Shown: positions 1,178 through 26,915 of the stretch, in pieces
How positions within the stretch are numbered: the first letter of the stretch is position 1
Layout: each line of letters starts with the position of its first letter
NCBI GenBank assembly: GCA_902526565.1
Contig: CABZLP010000007.1
Location: 1 to 33,671, forward strand
Origin: an uncultured Pelagibacteraceae bacterium
GTDB lineage: Bacteria; Pseudomonadota; Alphaproteobacteria; Pelagibacterales; AG-422-B15
Direction: 5' to 3'
Length of the DNA stretch: 33,671 bases
The notes under the pieces: model-generated
Seen by the model: the letters and a program-made list of their open reading frames with translations, nothing else
Told to the model about the DNA's origin: nothing
Database searches by the model: none
Program-made: the position numbers and the translations under genes

Positions 1178-3760
1178 ATGAGAATTAATGATCTAAGAAA
1201 TGCTTTCATATCATATTTTGAAAATGAGGGGCATGAGCACGTTCATTCTAGCCCACTTGTTCCGCAGAATGATCCAACACTTATGTTTGCTAATTCAGGA
1301 ATGGTGCAATTTAAAAATGTTTTCACTGGATTGGAAAATAGAGACTACAACAGAGCAGTCACCGCACAAAAATGCATTAGAGCTGGTGGTAAACATAATG
1401 ATCTAGAAAATGTTGGATATACTTTGAGACACCATACTTTTTTTGAAATGTTGGGAAATTTTTCTTTTGGAGATTATTTTAAAGATGATGCAATTAATTA
1501 TGCCTGGAAGTTTATCACATCAGATCTAGCTATAAATAAAGAAAAATTATGCGTTACAATTTATCACAATGATGATCAAGCATATGCTGCATGGAAAAAA
1601 GTTACTGGCCTTAGTGATGACAGAATAATTAGAATTTCAACGAAGGATAATTTCTGGTCTATGGGTGAAACAGGACCATGTGGACCTTGCTCTGAGATAT
1701 TTTATGACCATGGTGAGAAATTCAGTGGAAAGTTACCTAGTGAAGCTGACGAAACTGGAGACAGATTTGTTGAAATATGGAATCTAGTTTTTATGCAATT
1801 CGAACAGTTGAATTCGAACGAGAGAATTGATCTGCCTAAGCCCTCAATTGATACGGGTATGGGAATTGAGAGAATTGCCGCCGTCATGCAAGGTACAAAT
1901 GATAACTACCAAGTTGATAGCATAAAAGAAATTATTAACAATTCAATAGATCTAACTAAGGCTGACGACAATAAATTAATTTCAAGTCACAGAGTGATAG
2001 CTGATCATTTACGTTCTTCATGTTTCTTAATTGCTGATGGCGTATTACCTTCTAATGAGGGAAGAGGCTATGTACTGAGAAGAATTATGAGAAGAGCGAT
2101 GCGTCATGTTCATCTGCTTCAATGCAAAGATACTTTAATGCATCAATTGGTCCCAACTTTAATGCTTAATATGAAGGATGCATATCCGGAATTGTTAAGG
2201 GCAGAAGTGCTAATCAAAGAGACATTAAAGTACGAAGAGGAAAAATTTAAAGATCTTTTAGAAAAAGGTATTATGCAATTAGAAGCTATATCTCAAAACC
2301 TTGGATCTAATGATATTTTTCCAGGAGAATCTGCATTTAAGCTTTATGATACTTATGGATTTCCAATTGATCTAACTCAGGACATATTAAAAAGTAAAAA
2401 TATCTCTATAGATATCGAAAGTTTTAATAAAAAACTTGAGGCACAAAAAGAATTAGCAAGAACAAATTGGTCAGGCGCAGGAGGAGCAGCGACACATAGA
2501 ATTTGGTTTGAATTAAATAACGAATTATCTGCAACAGAATTCCTTGGATATAATAGTATAGAAACGCAAGGTGAAGTTTTGTCAATAATCAAAAATGATC
2601 AAAGGGTAAATAAATTAAAAGATGGCGAAAAAGGAGTGCTTATATTAAATCAAACCGTTTTTTATGCAGAGTCAGGTGGGCAAATTGGGGACACAGGAAT
2701 AATAAAAGGAGAAAATTTTGAGTTCAAAGTTGAAGACACTCAAAAAAGAGGACAAGTAATCATTCATTCTGGCGTTGTGATTAGAGGCATTATAGAAATT
2801 GGTCTAAATGCATCTTTATCAGTTAATCAAAAGCAAAGAAATGATTGCCGGGCATATCATTCAGCTACACATATTTTACACCAATCTCTAAGAGATAGAC
2901 TGGGGGAGCATGTTACACAGAAAGGATCTTTAGTTTCAAATGACAAATTAAGGTTTGATTTTAGCCATCATAGATCAATGACAAATATAGAAATTGAAGA
3001 TGTTCAAAATAAAGTAAATGAAATTATCAAGAGTGGTTCTGAGGTAGAAACACAAATAATGTCCCCGGATGATGCCGTAAAGGCCGGTGCTCTTGCCCTG
3101 TTTGGAGAAAAGTATTCTGATGAAGTAAGAGTTCTCAAAATAGGAAAATTAAATGACAAAACATATAGTACTGAGTTATGTGGAGGAACACATGTTTCAA
3201 ATACAAAAGAAATTGGGGAATTGAAGATTATTAGTGAGTCTTCTGCTGCCTCAGGCGTAAGAAGAATTGAGGCTTTAAGAGGTGATGATTTATTAAAATA
3301 TAATGAAGAGAAGAAGAGTGAAAACCTTAGGTCAGAAGAAAAAAGATTAGATATTAAAAAAGTAAAAGAAATTTCTACTGTGAACATAAAACTTCTTGAA
3401 GAAGCGATGCAAATGAGCATTAGTAATGTCTCTGATCAAAATATAATTATTGAATTTTGTGACAATGTTCCAGTTAATGAATTAAGACCACTGATTGATA
3501 AATATAAAAAACTAATTTCTGGAGATGGTGTTATTATTATCTGCGCTAAAAAGGATAATAAGTTAAGTTTCTTAATTGGCGTTACAGATCTACTAGCTAA
3601 CAAAATTGGAGCAGACGAAATTGCTAAATTTGCCTCTTCTATTTCAAATGGCAAAGGGGGCGGAGGTAGAAAAGATTTTGCTCAATCAGGAGGCATGTTA
3701 ATAGATGAAAATGATCAAAAAAAGAAACTGAGAGAGTTTATTATTGATAAGTTACAGTAA
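1178..3760 (+). CDS. alaS: Alanyl-tRNA synthetase
   Basis: This enzyme charges tRNA-Ala with alanine and hydrolyses mischarged Ser/Gly-tRNA-Ala. At 860 residues it is close to the usual 870-880. The class II catalytic domain is N-terminal (NSGMVQFK near residue 40, then the GMGIERIA motif 3 region). The editing domain carries the zinc ligands HSATH (about 561-565) and CGGTH (about 668-672). The C-terminal DHHA1-type domain has the glycine-rich [13 protein letters not shown] segment near 824. The start [10 protein letters not shown] fits family alignments, although no strong Shine-Dalgarno sequence precedes it. Only 33 bp separate it from the recA terminator, so its promoter must be very close or overlap that region. 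Its last 20 bp overlap the 3' end of icd on the other strand. Confidence 0.98.
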
Positions 3761-4970
3761 GTTTTTTATCTAGGTTTCGTTCAATAATTTCTAAAAAATC
3801 TTCAGTACTATGCCAATCTTGTTCATGAGGCATTAATAAAGCTAGATCTTTTGTCATTGAGCCACTTTCAACAGTCTCAATACATACTTTTTCTAATTTA
3901 TCAGCAAATTGAATTAGTTCATCATTCTCATCCAGTTTCCCACGATATTTAAGGCCCCTTGACCATGCAAAGATAGAGGCAATTGGGTTAGTTGAGGTCT
4001 GTTTACCCTCTTGATGCAATCTGTAATGCCTTGTTACTGTTCCATGAGCAGCCTCTGCCTCGATTGTTTTTCCATCTGGAGTCATTAATACACTTGTCAT
4101 GAGGCCTAGCGATCCAAATCCCTGAGCAACAGTATCAGATTGTACATCTCCGTCATAGTTTTTGCAGGCCCATACAAATTTTCCATTCCATTTTAATGCA
4201 GATGCGACCATATCATCTATTAATCTGTGCTCGTAATCTAAATTGAGTGATTTAAATTTATCAGCAAATTCATTTTCATATACTTCCTGAAAGAGATCTT
4301 TAAACCTACCATCGTATTGTTTTAAAATAGTATTTTTTGTGGATAAATAGACAGGCCATTCGCGCATTAATGCATAATTCATACAAGATTTTGCAAAGTC
4401 TCTGATTGACTCGTCTGTATTATACATTGCCATCGCTACACCACTCGATTGAAATTCATAAACTTCTTTTTCAATAGGTTCTATATTTGGATCTTCTGGA
4501 GTCCATTTGATACTTAACTTCCCTTTACCAGGTACTTTAAAATCTGTTGCTTTATATTGATCTCCAAAAGCGTGTCTACCAACAACTATTGGATCAGTCC
4601 ATCCAGGCACAAGTCTTGGAACATTTTTGCAAACAATTGGCTCCCTAAAAACTGTTCCACCAAGTATATTTCTTATAGTTCCATTCGGTGAACGCCACAT
4701 TTCTTTCAGTTTAAATTCTTCTACTCGGTCTTCATCAGGCGTTATAGTGGCACATTTAACACCAACACCGTATTTTTTTATAGCATTTGCAGAGTCAACT
4801 GTAATTTTGTCATTGGTTCTATCCCTGCTTATTACTCCAAGATCATAATAATCAAGGTCTACATCAAGATATGGAAGTATGAGTTTATCTTTAATAAACT
4901 GCCATATAATTCTTGTCATTTCATCACCATCTACTTCAACTAGTGGCGTTTTAACTCTAATTTTATTCAC
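3741..4970 (-). CDS. icd: NADP-dependent isocitrate dehydrogenase
   Basis: The enzyme oxidatively decarboxylates isocitrate to 2-oxoglutarate in the TCA cycle and produces NADPH. The 409-residue protein is of the homodimeric type shared by alphaproteobacteria and eukaryotes, not the E. coli type. The substrate-binding SPNGTIRN is at residues 94-101, [12 protein letters not shown] follows near 133, and the cofactor region [11 protein letters not shown] is near 310. The start is a GTG at 4968-4970, lying inside the end of the upstream LOG gene (8-bp overlap); no upstream ATG in frame would make sense. The stop overlaps the alaS stop region on the opposite strand by 20 bp. It is the last gene of the efflux-type gene string, so it either rides on that transcript or has a promoter within the LOG gene. 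Confidence 0.97.
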
Positions 4971-5505: not shown

Positions 5506-8500
5506 TAATCAGCCAAAACTTTAACATTGAGTATTTTGGACTTACTATAAAATATATTTTTAATACTTTTCGGCAATGCAAGAAGAGCAGGTGTAACAAA
5601 CAATGTGGCAAAAGACGCAAATCCTATACCCCAAATAAGTGACCAAGCAAGAAGAACAAAAAAGTATGTTTCTTCACTCTTATATGCAATCGTTCTGTCA
5701 AAAATATCCAAGCTTATTTGGAGTGCTGATGGAAGTAGACCGGTAATTGTCGTAATTGTAGTTAAAAAAATTGGCCTAATTCTATTTTTACATGCAACTA
5801 AAATTGCCTCATAGACATTGCTTCTATCCTCTAGAAGTTCTTTACGATAACTGTCAATTAAAATTATATTATTATTCACAACAATTCCCATACAAGCAAC
5901 AATACCTAAACCTGAAAATACAATACTGAATTTTAAATCAAGTAATAGAGTTCCAAGTAATATGCCTCCGATTGATAGAATTACAGAAAATAAAATTATA
6001 AATGTATGATAAAAGTTATTAAACAAGGTAATCAACACTATAAAAATCCCCACCAATGCACCAAAGAATGCTAACATTAAAAAATTCATCGAGCTGGCCG
6101 AGTCTTCAGCTTCACCAGCAAATTTGATAAATACATTTGAAGGTAAATTTAATTCATCCACCCATTTTGATAGTTCCTGCTTTACCTCTGATGCATTTAA
6201 TTCATCATTTATATTTGCATCAATTACAAGTGTTCTCATGCCTTGTTGTTTTCCAATGGTAAAAACTTTTTCTCTTTTTTGCTTGTCAACAAAGTTGGAT
6301 AATGGGACTAGACCTTGAGAAGTTGAAATATTTGTTCTTTCAATCGAGGAGAAAGTTTTTTCGTCAGAAGGTAAATAAATTTTTACAGGTATTCTCTCCT
6401 CAGCATTATCAGGAATAATATTACCAATTGTAAGACCTGAAGTAGCAATTTTAATACTATCACCAATTGTATTTTTTGATAAATCGTATTTTTTTGTTTC
6501 ATTTGAGTCGATATTATAGATCCATTCAATCCCTGTAATTGGATTTTTAATATTCTGATCAGTAAACGAGTCATCTTTTATTAATTTCTGCAGCACAATT
6601 CCTGCAAATTGTCTAATTTTGGTTGAGTCTGCAGACTGAACTTCAATTGTAAGATCTTTCGCCCACTGCGAACCGCTATAATCGTTTGCACTAACACTAA
6701 TATTTAAACCCTGAATTACTGATAACCTTTTTTCTAGGTCCTGAATAACTAAATCAGTATCTGGCCGGTCCTTAAAGTCAATTAAATCTACCCAAATATC
6801 TGCCACCATATCTGTTGGGTTATTATCAAATAACCATATCCTATCTCGATAGATTGTATTTCCATAAAAATTCTTAATATGAGGATGTCCAACTATTACA
6901 TCGATTGTTTCTTCTAGATAACCTTTTGACTCTGAAGGAGATAAATTACCTTTTGCCAAGATTTCTATTTCTAGACTGTTTGCCTTGTCTTCAGCAAAAA
7001 AAACATATTCTGTGTTAGACTTTATTATTCCAAATACGATTGTTGAAAATATAAGAATACCAAATAATGAAATTTTAATTGGATTTACAATTATATAATT
7101 AATAATTGTTCCATAGTATGTATAAAACAAACTATCGTAAGGATCTTTTTTTGTAACCATTCCTGCAGTCTTCATTCCAAAAGATGACCCAAGTACAGGA
7201 ATTATAATCATTGTAACAAAGAAAGAGCATAACAATACAACAAGTACTGTCCTTGGAATTACTCGTATCCATACACCAAAAAAATCTGGCCAAAATGCTA
7301 AAGGCAAGAATGCTAATACGGTAGTTAATGTAGATGCAAATATTGGATAAAACATGTCGTGAGCTGCATTAAGGTAAGACAAAGACCTCCTAACACCTTT
7401 TTCCTGTTCTCTTCTAGCGTATTCGGTTATTACGATCGGTCCATCAACAAGCAGCCCAACTGATAATACAAGGCCCATTATGCTCATTAAATTATAGGAC
7501 ATGCCCATGAAATTCAGAATCGTTATTGAGAGTAAATAAGTAGTTGGTATTGAAACGCCTACAAGAAGTCCAACACGCCACCCAAGAATAGCTACAATAA
7601 TGGTCATCACAATGATTACGGCTGTTATTACAGTATTTTCAGATGCTGAAATTCTATCATTTATATCCTTAGATTCGTCCGCTATGAGCACAGCTGATGC
7701 AATAGGGCTAATGGTCCCGTCTAATTCAGAAAGTTTTTTCTTTATGCTATCATAAAGTGTAATTGTGCTTGAGTTCTCTTTTTTATTAATTTGAAGTAAT
7801 ATACCTGGATTACCATTTATGTTTACGTAGTCTTTATTTTTATCAAATGTTTGTTTTACACTAGCAATATCGCTTAAATAAATTGTCTTATTAGATGATG
7901 ATTTTATTGGTAGTTTATTAAGTTCTGCTGCGGACTTGTATAGAGACTTTATTTTAACAGAATAGTCAGAATTATTGTTTGTAATCTTCCCTGCAGAAAT
8001 AAGGTTGTTATATTTTTTAAAAGACTCAAGTACATTATTAATTCCTAGATCATATTTTTCCATTGAGGACGCATTTATATTTATGTCTATTATTTCATCT
8101 TTTTTTCCTTTATATTCAATATCTGTAACGTCATAAAGTTGTTCAAATTCGTCTTCATATTTTTCAGCAACCTTGACTAATTCTCGGTAACCCATATCGC
8201 CGTGAATGCCAACTAATACAAATTGATAATTAGAAGATTTATGTTCAACTACCTCTCTGAGGTCATAACCCTGAGGCAGGTCATCAATATTTAAAATTTT
8301 ATTTCTTACTTCTTTTGCAATATTTGGTATCTCAGTATCTAATTCAAATGCAATTAAAAATGATACCAGTCCATCTTTTGTGATAGAAACAACTTCCTTT
8401 GAATCTTTCATTGTCATCATTTCTTTTTCTATCGGAGTTGTAATTAATCTTTCTACATCTGTTGAAGATGCTCCATCATAATAGACAATTACTGAAACAG

Positions 8501-8636
8501 ACTTTAGGTCCACATTTGGCCATTCATGCCGTGGGAAGCTAGTATAGGATAGAACACCAACTAAAAATATACCTACCAAAATAGTGTTAATAGTTTTTTT
8601 TCTGAAAAAAATTGTATCAAGTATTTTTTTTAGCAT
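5505..8636 (-). CDS. RND efflux pump inner-membrane subunit (second of a pair)
   Basis: This is a proton-driven RND transporter subunit of 1043 residues, with an N-terminal transmembrane segment, two large periplasmic domains and clusters of membrane helices in each half. The TM4 region reads GLLVDGPIV, with a single Asp (D398) where AcrB has two. The TM10 region reads GIVVNNNIILID (first Asn at 921), where AcrB has Lys940. RND subfamilies lacking that Lys are known, so this need not mean loss of function. The ATG abuts the TAA of the upstream RND gene with no spacer, and the TAA overlaps the next ATG. Its divergence from the neighbouring subunit, together with a single adaptor gene, suggests a heteromeric pump in the manner of MdtBC. 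The substrate is unknown. Confidence 0.93.
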   Translation of the reverse strand: MLKKILDTIFFRKKTINTILVGIFLVGVLSYTSFPRHEWPNVDLKSVSVIVYYDGASSTDVERLITTPIEKEMMTMKDSKEVVSITKDGLVSFLIAFELDTEIPNIAKEVRNKILNIDDLPQGYDLREVVEHKSSNYQFVLVGIHGDMGYRELVKVAEKYEDEFEQLYDVTDIEYKGKKDEIIDININASSMEKYDLGINNVLESFKKYNNLISAGKITNNNSDYSVKIKSLYKSAAELNKLPIKSSSNKTIYLSDIASVKQTFDKNKDYVNINGNPGILLQINKKENSSTITLYDSIKKKLSELDGTISPIASAVLIADESKDINDRISASENTVITAVIIVMTIIVAILGWRVGLLVGVSIPTTYLLSITILNFMGMSYNLMSIMGLVLSVGLLVDGPIVITEYARREQEKGVRRSLSYLNAAHDMFYPIFASTLTTVLAFLPLAFWPDFFGVWIRVIPRTVLVVLLCSFFVTMIIIPVLGSSFGMKTAGMVTKKDPYDSLFYTYYGTIINYIIVNPIKISLFGILIFSTIVFGIIKSNTEYVFFAEDKANSLEIEILAKGNLSPSESKGYLEETIDVIVGHPHIKNFYGNTIYRDRIWLFDNNPTDMVADIWVDLIDFKDRPDTDLVIQDLEKRLSVIQGLNISVSANDYSGSQWAKDLTIEVQSADSTKIRQFAGIVLQKLIKDDSFTDQNIKNPITGIEWIYNIDSNETKKYDLSKNTIGDSIKIATSGLTIGNIIPDNAEERIPVKIYLPSDEKTFSSIERTNISTSQGLVPLSNFVDKQKREKVFTIGKQQGMRTLVIDANINDELNASEVKQELSKWVDELNLPSNVFIKFAGEAEDSASSMNFLMLAFFGALVGIFIVLITLFNNFYHTFIILFSVILSIGGILLGTLLLDLKFSIVFSGLGIVACMGIVVNNNIILIDSYRKELLEDRSNVYEAILVACKNRIRPIFLTTITTITGLLPSALQISLDIFDRTIAYKSEETYFFVLLAWSLIWGIGFASFATLFVTPALLALPKSIKNIFYSKSKILNVKVLAD

Positions 8637-11600
8637 TTACGCGAATGAAGGCTTTCTAAATTTTTTTATAATATCTTTGATGTGATCTGGTAAAACTAGA
8701 AGGCAAGGAGTTAGCACTAAAGTTAAAATTGCGGAAAAAGAAATACCATAAATGATGCATTGAGCCAGTGGAGCCCAAGATGTTGATGCATTAGAGTCAT
8801 ACGCGATATCTCTGGCTATTGGATCGATAGAATAGTTTAGCGCTAAAGGTATCAAGCCCAACATTGTTGTAAGTGATGTAAGAAAAATAGGGCGCAATCT
8901 TTGAGCACAGGCCTTAATTATTCGAGTTCTTACATCCTCATTAGACTTAGAGGAAATAACATTAAAGCTGTCTATTAAAATTATATTATTGTTTACAACT
9001 ATTCCCGCTAAAGAAACTATACCAATTCCTGTTAAAAGTGCGCTAAATACCTGGTTGAATATAAGTAAGCCCAACATCACCCCAGCTGTACTGAGTACAA
9101 CGGCACTTAGAATAATTGTCATTTGATAAAAATTATTGAATTGGGTTACTAATAATGCAGCCATAAGCATGATTGAAATAACAAAAGCCTGTGTAACGAA
9201 ATTTAGTGAATTTACTTGCTCTTCATTATCACCTCCAAATTCAATATCAACATTTGCAGGAATACTCTGTTCTTTAATCCATGATTCAAATAATTTCAAT
9301 CTAGATTCAGGTGTAAATTCTGATGAAACATCCGCTTTAATTATTGTTACGTGTTTAGAGTCAAATTTTCTTACATAATTTACTTTTTGTTGGGGTTTTT
9401 TTTCAACAAAATTTGAAATCGGAACCATACCAGACTCCGTATTTATTAAAATATTGTCTAGTTCATCAATATACCTTTCCTTTTCTGGATATCTCAGGAC
9501 AATGTCTAATTCTTCGTCAATATCTTTTGGCCTATAAGAGCCAATTGTAAGCCCACTAGTAATAAGGCCAATTGAATTCCCAATGGTAGGTATGTCTGCG
9601 CCGAATTTTGCTGCTTTTGGCTTATCAACAAAAAGTTCCCATTCTACGCCCGGTACCGGAAGAGTACTTTCTAAATTGACAAGGCCAACTACTGTATTCA
9701 AATAGCTCTTAATATCTTGAGCAACAGTCATTGTAGAGCTTCTGTTGGGCCCAAGTACTCTTATTTCAATATCTTTACCAGTTGGTGGGCCACCTTCTTG
9801 TGCTTTGATCTCAGTCTTGATTCCTGGAATCTTGTCCAGTTCTTTTCTCATATTTTCAATTACAACTCTTCCATTTTCTCTCTCTTTTCTGTCGGTAAAT
9901 TCAAAGAAAAATGAGGCAATTGTATCATCTGAGCTACTACCACCTGTTCTAAAATTATTGAATCTTCCAGTTTGCAAAAATAGATTTTTAACACCTTTTG
10001 TTCCGTGTACGATTTCTTCAACTGATTCAGATAATTCATCAATTTGCTCGATTGTAAGATTTCCACGTGCTTGAATTTTTCCAAATCCAGCATATGGATC
10101 ACTTTGAGACACTAAAACAACACCTTTACCTATTGAAGAATAAGTTGAAATAACAATAAATGAGAAAATAATTATTGATCCACTAACTATCAACGGTCTT
10201 TTAAGGACCAGTGTCAGAAAATTAATATATTTTCCAACAATTCCCTCAACTTTAGAGAGATCATATGCATGTTCTGAACTTATTGACTGAACAGTTTTTT
10301 TGCTCATTTCGGAAGCCTTGCCAAAAATACTGCCAATCACAGGAACAATCATCAGACTATAAATTAAAGCCACAGTTAGGATGATGAATATTGTAATAGG
10401 TAGAACTCTCATGAACTGCCCACTTACACCTGGCCAGAAAAATAAAGGAATAAATACCGCTAACGTTGTTGCTGCTGATGCAGTGACAGGCCAGAACATT
10501 CTTTTTGCAGCATAAATAAAGGCTGTTTTCTTATCATATCCCTCTACCATTTTTCTATCGGCCAATTCTACAACAACTATCGAGCCGTCTATCAGCATCC
10601 CTAAAGCCACCAACATTCCAAATATAACCATAAAATTATATGTAAACCCGAGGGCATATAAAATAAAAATGGCAATAATAATTGATACTGGAATACCAGA
10701 TCCTACTATTAAGGAGGACCTAATCCCAAAAGTTATCATCGCTACAATTAGCACAAACATAGTAGCCATTATAATATTTCCTTGAAGTGAATTAACTTGT
10801 TCAAGCATTACATCTTTTGTATTTAATACATAGCCAAGACTAATATCAGGTGAAATTTTTGATTGATATTTTTCTACAATATTTTCAACTTTATTAATCG
10901 TACTTATTAGGTTTGCCCCACGCGCTTTTTTTACTCCTAAGCAAATACTTTGATTTTGATTAATACTTGTAAAAAACGTTCGCTCTTTGAAGTTTCTTTT
11001 AACATCGGAAATATCAGACAGCAGGACAACTCCGTTGGAAGAAGATCTGATAGGTATAGAATTAATTTCACTTTCGTCTTCAAATAAACCTGGAACATCT
11101 ACCGAGAATTGCCCCTGACCAGTTTCAATTTCGCCAGCCATAACAGCCTGATTATTATTATTGATTGCTCTTATAATTTCATAAATAGAAATATTATAAT
11201 TCTCAATTTGATTACGGTTAAGTATTGCTTCTAATTGTTCATCTCTATTTCCGATCAAATCAACTTCAAAAATTTCTGGAAGAAGCTCTATTTCATTCTG
11301 AATATCTCGTATAATATTTAAAAGTTCTCGTTCTTGAGCAACATCTGAGGAAATTGCTACAATAATTGAGGGGTCATCAGATAAAGATACTTCTCTAACT
11401 ATTGGATCTTTAGCATCTTCTGGAAACTTTGATTTAGCTTCGTTTACAGCATCTCTGACATTATCTAAAGATTTTGACATTGTCTCAGCCGCTTCAAACT
11501 CTACAACTGCAGCCGCATAACCTTCGAAACCAAACGCTTGAAGTTTTTTTACACCCTCAATGGATCTCAACTCTTCTTCGAGAGGACGTACTAATAATCT

Positions 11601-24814: not shown

Positions 24815-26113
24815 ATGATAAATACTTTTTATATTTTTTTACTTTCAATACTTGTGTTATTTAGTTGCATTAAAAATGAAATCACAGAAGATAACTCTAA
24901 TACCTTTTCAATTTTAGCTTATGACGCACAGATTTCGGAAACTCTAGGTTTAAATATAAACGATATAATTATAGAACCTCCACGACAAATAAATTATTGG
25001 TCGCAACATTTTCAAAATCCCACTAATAATCTAAACCATATATCTTCTTCATCCAAACTTAAAAATAAATCAAAGGTTGTTTCAGGTACAAGAGGAGCAC
25101 TTAACATAATACAACCTATCTACTTCAATGAAACAATTTGCTACATTTTACCAAAGGGTTTTTTAGAGTGTAAGAATGTCATAAGTGAGGAAAAGAAATT
25201 TTCAATTAATATAAAAATTAAAGATAGTAAAAATTATGAGGTCATAAGAGGTGGCCTTGCTTATTTTGACAATAAAATAGTATTGGTTGATGCTTATGGA
25301 CAGATTTTACTCATTGATGCTAATGATGGGAGTCAAATCTGGAAAAAAAATATTGAATTTCCAATTCTTTCACCTCCACTAATTTATAGAAATAAAATTT
25401 ACTTTATCTCCTCAGATAATAGATTATTTTCTCTTGCTTTAGAGACTGGGAATATCGAATGGTCATTTCAAACGATTGCTGAATCCAAGAAAAGTCTTAT
25501 TACAGCGTCCCCGATAGCTTTTGAAAATACAATTATAGCACCTTTTAGCAATGGCGAATTAGTAGCTTTTTCTCACGATACTGGTAGACCGCTGTGGTCT
25601 GAGAATATTTCAAAAGTTTCATTACTGAGCAACTTTGATATCAAAGATATTTCAGCAAGTCCTGTCTTATCAAATAATATAATTTTTTCCCTTAGCACAA
25701 ATGGTAAGTTTATATCAATAGACGCTATTAATGGAAAAAGAAACTGGTCAATTGATGTATCAGGATACAGGACGCCAACTATATCAGGAAATCAAATATA
25801 CGTAATAGATGAAGATGGAAAGCTTATTTGTCTAGATAAGAATTCTGGGGAAGTATATTGGATTACTGAGCTTGATAAATATAAAAAAGGGCAAAAAGCA
25901 AAGGATCTTAATCTATGGTTAGGTCCATATTTAATGAACAGTTTATTGTACAATATTTCTTACTTTGGCGAATTAAAGATTGTCTCACCAAAGACAGGTG
26001 AAATACTTTCGTCAGATAATCTAGGCATAAAAGGAATAATGTTACCGCCACTTATATTAAGCAATGCCGTATTTGTAATGGATGAAAATTCCAATGTCTT
26101 CCAGTTTGAATAA
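24815..26113 (+). CDS. bamB: Outer membrane assembly lipoprotein BamB (beta-propeller, PQQ-like repeats)
   Basis: BamB is the beta-propeller lipoprotein of the BAM complex, which folds proteins into the outer membrane. The 432-residue protein starts with a lipoprotein signal (FYIFLLSILVLFSC) whose lipobox Cys is residue 18. The body contains repeated PQQ-like blades ending in G-x-x-x-W motifs: DANDGSQIWKKNI, ALETGNIEWSFQ, SHDTGRPLWSEN, DAINGKRNWSID and DKNSGEVYWITEL. Its length is slightly above E. coli BamB. It lies between the YfgM-like gene and der, a neighbour set conserved well beyond alphaproteobacteria. Its last 32 bp overlap the der start region. Confidence 0.9.
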   Translation: MINTFYIFLLSILVLFSCIKNEITEDNSNTFSILAYDAQISETLGLNINDIIIEPPRQINYWSQHFQNPTNNLNHISSSSKLKNKSKVVSGTRGALNIIQPIYFNETICYILPKGFLECKNVISEEKKFSINIKIKDSKNYEVIRGGLAYFDNKIVLVDAYGQILLIDANDGSQIWKKNIEFPILSPPLIYRNKIYFISSDNRLFSLALETGNIEWSFQTIAESKKSLITASPIAFENTIIAPFSNGELVAFSHDTGRPLWSENISKVSLLSNFDIKDISASPVLSNNIIFSLSTNGKFISIDAINGKRNWSIDVSGYRTPTISGNQIYVIDEDGKLICLDKNSGEVYWITELDKYKKGQKAKDLNLWLGPYLMNSLLYNISYFGELKIVSPKTGEILSSDNLGIKGIMLPPLILSNAVFVMDENSNVFQFE

Positions 26114-26915
26114 AATAAATTTTTGTATTATTGGCAAACCAAATTCAGGTAAATCAACTTTATTTAACTGTTTGCTTGAAGATAGTATTTCTCCAGTTGG
26201 CGACGAATACGGGCTTACAAAAAATTTATTAAAGGATAAATTTACTTTGTACAACCACGATTTTACAATTTTTGATACTCCTGGACTGAGAAGAAAAAGC
26301 AAGATAGATGATCTGGATGAAAAAAAAAGAAGCAAGGAAGTCATTAACCTTGTCAACCAAGTAGACGTTGTAATTTTGCTCATAGATTCTGTTGAAAATA
26401 TTACCAAACAAGACTTTAGGTTAGCTGATTTAGCAATAACAAAAAAAAAGATACTATTTTTTTTGTTTAACAAAATGGATCTTATTGATGAAGGCAAAAA
26501 ATTTAAAACTAAGATCGATAAATATTTAAACAATAATTACAGTCAATATCAAATGATTAACACTGATTTTATTTCTGCGAAGAAAAATATTAGAATTAAG
26601 AGCTTTATAAAAGAAATTATTAACAAAAATAAACTTACCCACATTGAAATTACAAAAACAAATTTAAATAAATTTCTTAATTATTTAAATAAACAATCAA
26701 GATACCCAAAAATTAAAAAAAGAGAAATCAAACCTAAGTATATTGTGCAAATAAAGACTGGTTCTCCACTCTTTAAAGTCTTTATTAATTCAAAAAAGAA
26801 AGCGCCTCTTATATTTCAAAGATTTTTTGATAATGCATTCAGAGATTTTTTCAAAATAAAAGGAGTGCCCATTTCTTATCAATTTATAAGCTCTAACAAT
26901 CCTTATTCAGACTAA
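26082..26915 (+). CDS. der: Der/EngA-type ribosome-assembly GTPase lacking the first G domain
   Basis: Der normally has about 440-490 residues with two tandem GTPase domains and a C-terminal KH-like domain, and acts in 50S subunit maturation. This product has only 277 residues and one G domain: G1 GKPNSGKST (18-26), G3 DTPG (65-68), G4 NKMD (130-133), G5 SAK (165-167). The segment after G3 (LRRKSKIDDLDEKKRSKEVI then IDSVENITKQDFRLA) matches the second Der domain, not the first. The rest (about 185-272, TNLNKFLNYLNKQ through KGVPISYQFISSNNPY) is the Der KH-like domain. The switch I region is GLTKN where GTTRD is usual. The start lies inside bamB, leaving no room for the missing half. The 3' end overlaps the convergent SDR gene by 4 bp. 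Confidence 0.85.
   Translation: MKIPMSSSLNKINFCIIGKPNSGKSTLFNCLLEDSISPVGDEYGLTKNLLKDKFTLYNHDFTIFDTPGLRRKSKIDDLDEKKRSKEVINLVNQVDVVILLIDSVENITKQDFRLADLAITKKKILFFLFNKMDLIDEGKKFKTKIDKYLNNNYSQYQMINTDFISAKKNIRIKSFIKEIINKNKLTHIEITKTNLNKFLNYLNKQSRYPKIKKREIKPKYIVQIKTGSPLFKVFINSKKKAPLIFQRFFDNAFRDFFKIKGVPISYQFISSNNPYSD

Follow-up and report, generated by a model that had tools for sequence, protein, structure and literature searches.

In nearly all bacteria the ribosome-building enzyme Der (EngA; TIGR03594; E. coli Der, B. subtilis YphC, T. maritima 1MKY) carries two tandem GTP-hydrolysing domains (GD1 and GD2), together with a Der-specific KH-like domain (PF14714), in about 440-500 aa. In E. coli, GD1 binds near the L1 stalk, GD2 at the P site, and KH towards the peptidyl-transferase centre (Zhang 2014, cited in PMC13278734). 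A laboratory truncation of B. subtilis EngA consisting of GD2-KH binds nucleotides and is a slow, K+-stimulated GTPase, with 150-fold lower activity than GD1 (PMC3466195). Era (TIGR00436), of a length similar to the protein described here, has one G domain followed by a KH-type domain. Loss of der and era was reported as typical of CPR bacteria and not of other reduced genomes, and in CPR bacteria der loss goes with changes in uL1 and H78 (PMC12641178).

We analysed a 33,671-nt stretch (the window) of contig CABZLP010000007.1 (GCA_902526565.1) from an uncultured member of the Pelagibacterales (SAR11). The initial annotation had described a der gene encoding a single G domain of the second type joined to the KH-like domain. 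This was confirmed (Table 1). The EngA/Der profile TIGR03594 was the best NCBIfam hit (7.9e-58), but it aligned only at profile positions 174-431 of 432, with 196.5 bits against a cut-off of 306.7. Pfam gave one MMR_HSR1 domain (residues 14-131) and the KH-like domain (residues 190-268). In-frame stops lie directly before the first ATG, and bamB ends inside the beginning of the ORF, so there is no room for a GD1. The protein scored only 56.1 bits against the Era cut-off of 116.25, and true Era is a separate gene in the same lineages.

Table 1. Features of the single-G-domain der locus in the window and of two compared loci.
Sequence	Positions	Strand	Feature	Remarks
Window	24815..26113	+	bamB	Ends inside the start of the der ORF; yfgM-bamB-der order shared with an outgroup that has a full-length Der
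Window	26082..26915	+	Single-G-domain der (GD2-KH)	277 aa as the longest ORF
Window	26109..26630	+	G domain, GD2 type	Residues about 10-183
Window	26133..26159	+	G1/P-loop GKPNSGKST	Includes the Asn of PN; invariant core in 10 single-G orthologues
Window	26211..26225	+	Switch I GLTKN	G and T invariant in the order
Window	26274..26285	+	G3 DTPG	D and second G invariant; followed by the GD2-type LRRKSKI
Window	26469..26480	+	G4 NKMD	N, K and D invariant
Window	26649..26885	+	Der KH-like domain (PF14714)	51.8 bits against cut-off 27.3
L112 (HIMB59-sized genome)	2550-3824		Double der	425 aa
L214 (genus g6 genome G054)	5784-9117		panB-yfgM-bamB abutting purF	der precisely absent

The first codons of the ORF varied between close relatives. 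The ATG at 26082 was absent in several close orthologues, while the ATG four codons further in, at 26094, was conserved. The protein is thus probably 273 aa long, a small correction to the initial annotation. The gene order yfgM-bamB-der-SDR was the same as in the outgroup locus L118 (yfgM-bamB-der-SDR-purF), which has a full-length Der.

The gene is real and not an assembly artefact. Same-genus genomes carried orthologues at 50-94% identity, mostly in frames of 277-289 aa, and dN/dS to same-genus orthologues was about 0.05-0.22, indicating purifying selection. In an alignment of ten single-G proteins from two SAR11 families (f1, which includes the window, and f2), the P-loop core, the switch I Thr, DxxG and NKxD were invariant. 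The GLTKN-type switch I, noted in the initial annotation, is a feature of f1 only. Family f2 has GTTKD or GTTV. The f2 single-G Ders (loci L031, L077, L088 and L113-L116) also carry DxGG in switch II (DSGG, DTGG, DLGG), unlike f1 (DTPG) and the usual GD2 (DTAG).

To determine which G domain was retained, GD1 and GD2 profiles were built from 88 full-length Ders. The log-odds favoured GD2 by 118 bits for the window protein, by 114-160 bits in f1 and by 19-115 bits in f2. The best PDB sequence matches were Ders, with the best-scoring stretch being their second G domain plus KH, and the alignments started at about residue 175-229 of bacterial and mitochondrial Ders. In the tree, families f1 and f2 were each well-supported clades. 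A single clade of all single-G Ders was not rejected (p-AU 0.45), and the long HIMB59 branch disturbed the tree, which did not decide between one and two origins of GD1 loss.

The AlphaFold2 model, made with GD2-KH relatives, had a pLDDT of 78.8 and a pTM of 0.77, but both switch regions were of low confidence. Foldseek ranked Der structures first. Structural alignment gave Z of 21-24 over about 232-258 residues to GD2-KH of Ders such as 4DCV, 1MKY and the ribosome-bound 9BSL and 3J8G, above Era and other GTPases at about 19 or less. The predicted fold thus matches GD2-KH of solved Ders.

The single-G form is found across the order. With the EngA profile, no full-length Der was found in 59 relatives, while all ten bacterial controls passed. 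Among 398 order members at least 80% complete, only 37 had the Der KH domain, in 7 of 12 genera. Their frames were 269-287 aa, except three short ones (131, 139 and 158 aa). Seven same-genus drafts gave no hit, which is consistent with their incompleteness. Closed isolate genomes were among the carriers: genome G040 (1,160,202 bp) has the length given for Fonsibacter ubiquis LSUCC0530 (PMC6018831), and G039 (1,237,371 bp) matches HIMB114 (1237 kb; PMC3815206). Elsewhere in the class, 380 of 389 genomes had the domain, and the listed frames were almost all 440 aa or more. Of 22 weak or absent cases checked, 14 were full length and over the cut-off. A scan of genome contigs also returned Ders that, where readable, were nearly all two-domain, but it may leave out relatives of the window and gives no count.

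On the other hand, genera g3 (which contains the Pelagibacter-type isolates) and g6 had no Der KH match in any genome of the relatives set, and no EngA-profile match better than MnmE. These included g3 genomes G042 (1,456,888 bp) and G048 (1,343,202 bp), which match HTCC7211 (1457 kb) and HIMB5 (1343 kb) in length (PMC3815206). In the HTCC7211-sized genome the matches examined were MnmE, IF-2 and ObgE. In g6 (G054) the locus was a clean excision compared with g2 (subclade IIIa), g4 (Fonsibacter) and g5, whereas in g3 the neighbourhood after panB was different. The Era profile reached its cut-off in f1, g2, g4 and g5, but in no g3 or g6 genome. Der and Era are thus lost in the same genera.

A separate GD1 gene was looked for in the window's own draft genome and in closed or complete relatives, and none was found. 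In G059, a complete same-genus genome, the only matches to the EngA profile up to 1e-10 were the single-G Der, MnmE, Era, HflX, ObgE and a frame of IF-2 size. Genomes G040 and G036 showed matching frame sizes. These results support the proposal in the initial annotation that a lineage has reduced Der to a minimal form, and it is a whole order rather than a single genome, with the adjustment that the reduction is part of a longer series ending in complete loss of Der, together with Era, in Pelagibacter.

We also tested whether the docking site of GD1 had changed, as in CPR bacteria. The L1-stalk rRNA was 121 nt, as in E. coli, in single-G, Der-less and HIMB59 lineages, although the LSUCC0530 23S reads N in this region. 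uL1 was present in 14 of 14 complete genomes. The docking site was thus not lost first.

We interpreted the gene, with good confidence, to be the orthologue of Der with GD1 and the GD1-GD2 linker deleted, fixed in the Pelagibacterales lineages that keep it. We infer that the protein still binds immature 50S particles through KH near the peptidyl-transferase centre and GD2 at the P site, and that GTP hydrolysis, probably K+-dependent and slow, drives release. We also infer that GD1 served regulation or speed and was shed in a streamlined, slow-growing ancestor. Nothing here shows ribosome binding directly, and the low activity of the B. subtilis truncation indicates that a Der of GD2-KH only might be a poor enzyme. 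The complete loss of Der in Pelagibacter shows that the remaining function can be dispensed with in this order.

An unlikely alternative is that the retained domain is a GD1/GD2 chimera, made by deletion between the two P-loop repeats, with its STLFN and GLT motifs coming from GD1. The first 40 aligned residues were neutral between the two profiles, the F of STLFN scored GD1-like, and a one-step deletion between near-identical repeats is an easy route. However, the rest of the domain was clearly GD2, family f2 has GTTK, a GD2-type switch I, and single residues can converge. A chimera cannot be excluded but is not supported. It is also doubtful that two single-G Ders act as a homodimer, supplying the second G domain in trans and rebuilding the tandem arrangement on the 50S. 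The GD2 motifs are intact, G domains of related GTPases such as MnmE dimerise in K+ (cited within PMC3466195), and the conserved L1-stalk docking site could still bind a G domain, but EngA itself shows no K+-dependent dimerisation (PMC3466195), and the retained domain is of GD2 and not GD1 type. A degenerating remnant on the way to a pseudogene, as the absence of Der in Pelagibacter and g6 and the degenerate HIMB59 Der might indicate, is contradicted by the dN/dS values, the motifs invariant across two families and the whole frames in dozens of species.

SAR11 offers a natural series, with full-length Der in the outgroup, GD2-KH in several SAR11 lineages and no Der in Pelagibacter, and with cultured strains for the last two states (for example LSUCC0530 and HTCC7211). 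It is more likely than not that this order of free-living bacteria has dismantled two GTPases held to be essential, Der first losing GD1 order-wide while remaining a working 50S factor, and Pelagibacter then losing Der and Era together. GD1 would then be dispensable for 50S maturation in nature, and ribosome assembly could run without either factor outside the CPR. No description of a single-domain Der, or of Der/Era loss in SAR11, was found in the literature searched, which did not cover subscription papers. The protein is Der by descent, and differs from described Ders in lacking the defining two-domain feature.

Genome G436 (1,410,127 bp) matches HIMB59 (1410 kb), which is not a SAR11 member (PMC3815206) and is an independently streamlined marine lineage. 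Its very fast-evolving Der, next to bamB and yfgM, still has two G domains, but the first is degenerate (GKVNEGKS, NQLD) and the KH domain is below the Pfam cut-off. Two other small genomes of the class, G547 and G554 (1.2 and 0.9 Mb, 99-100% complete), appeared to lack Der and gave only Era- and MnmE-like matches, while a same-genus sister of G554 has a full-length Der.
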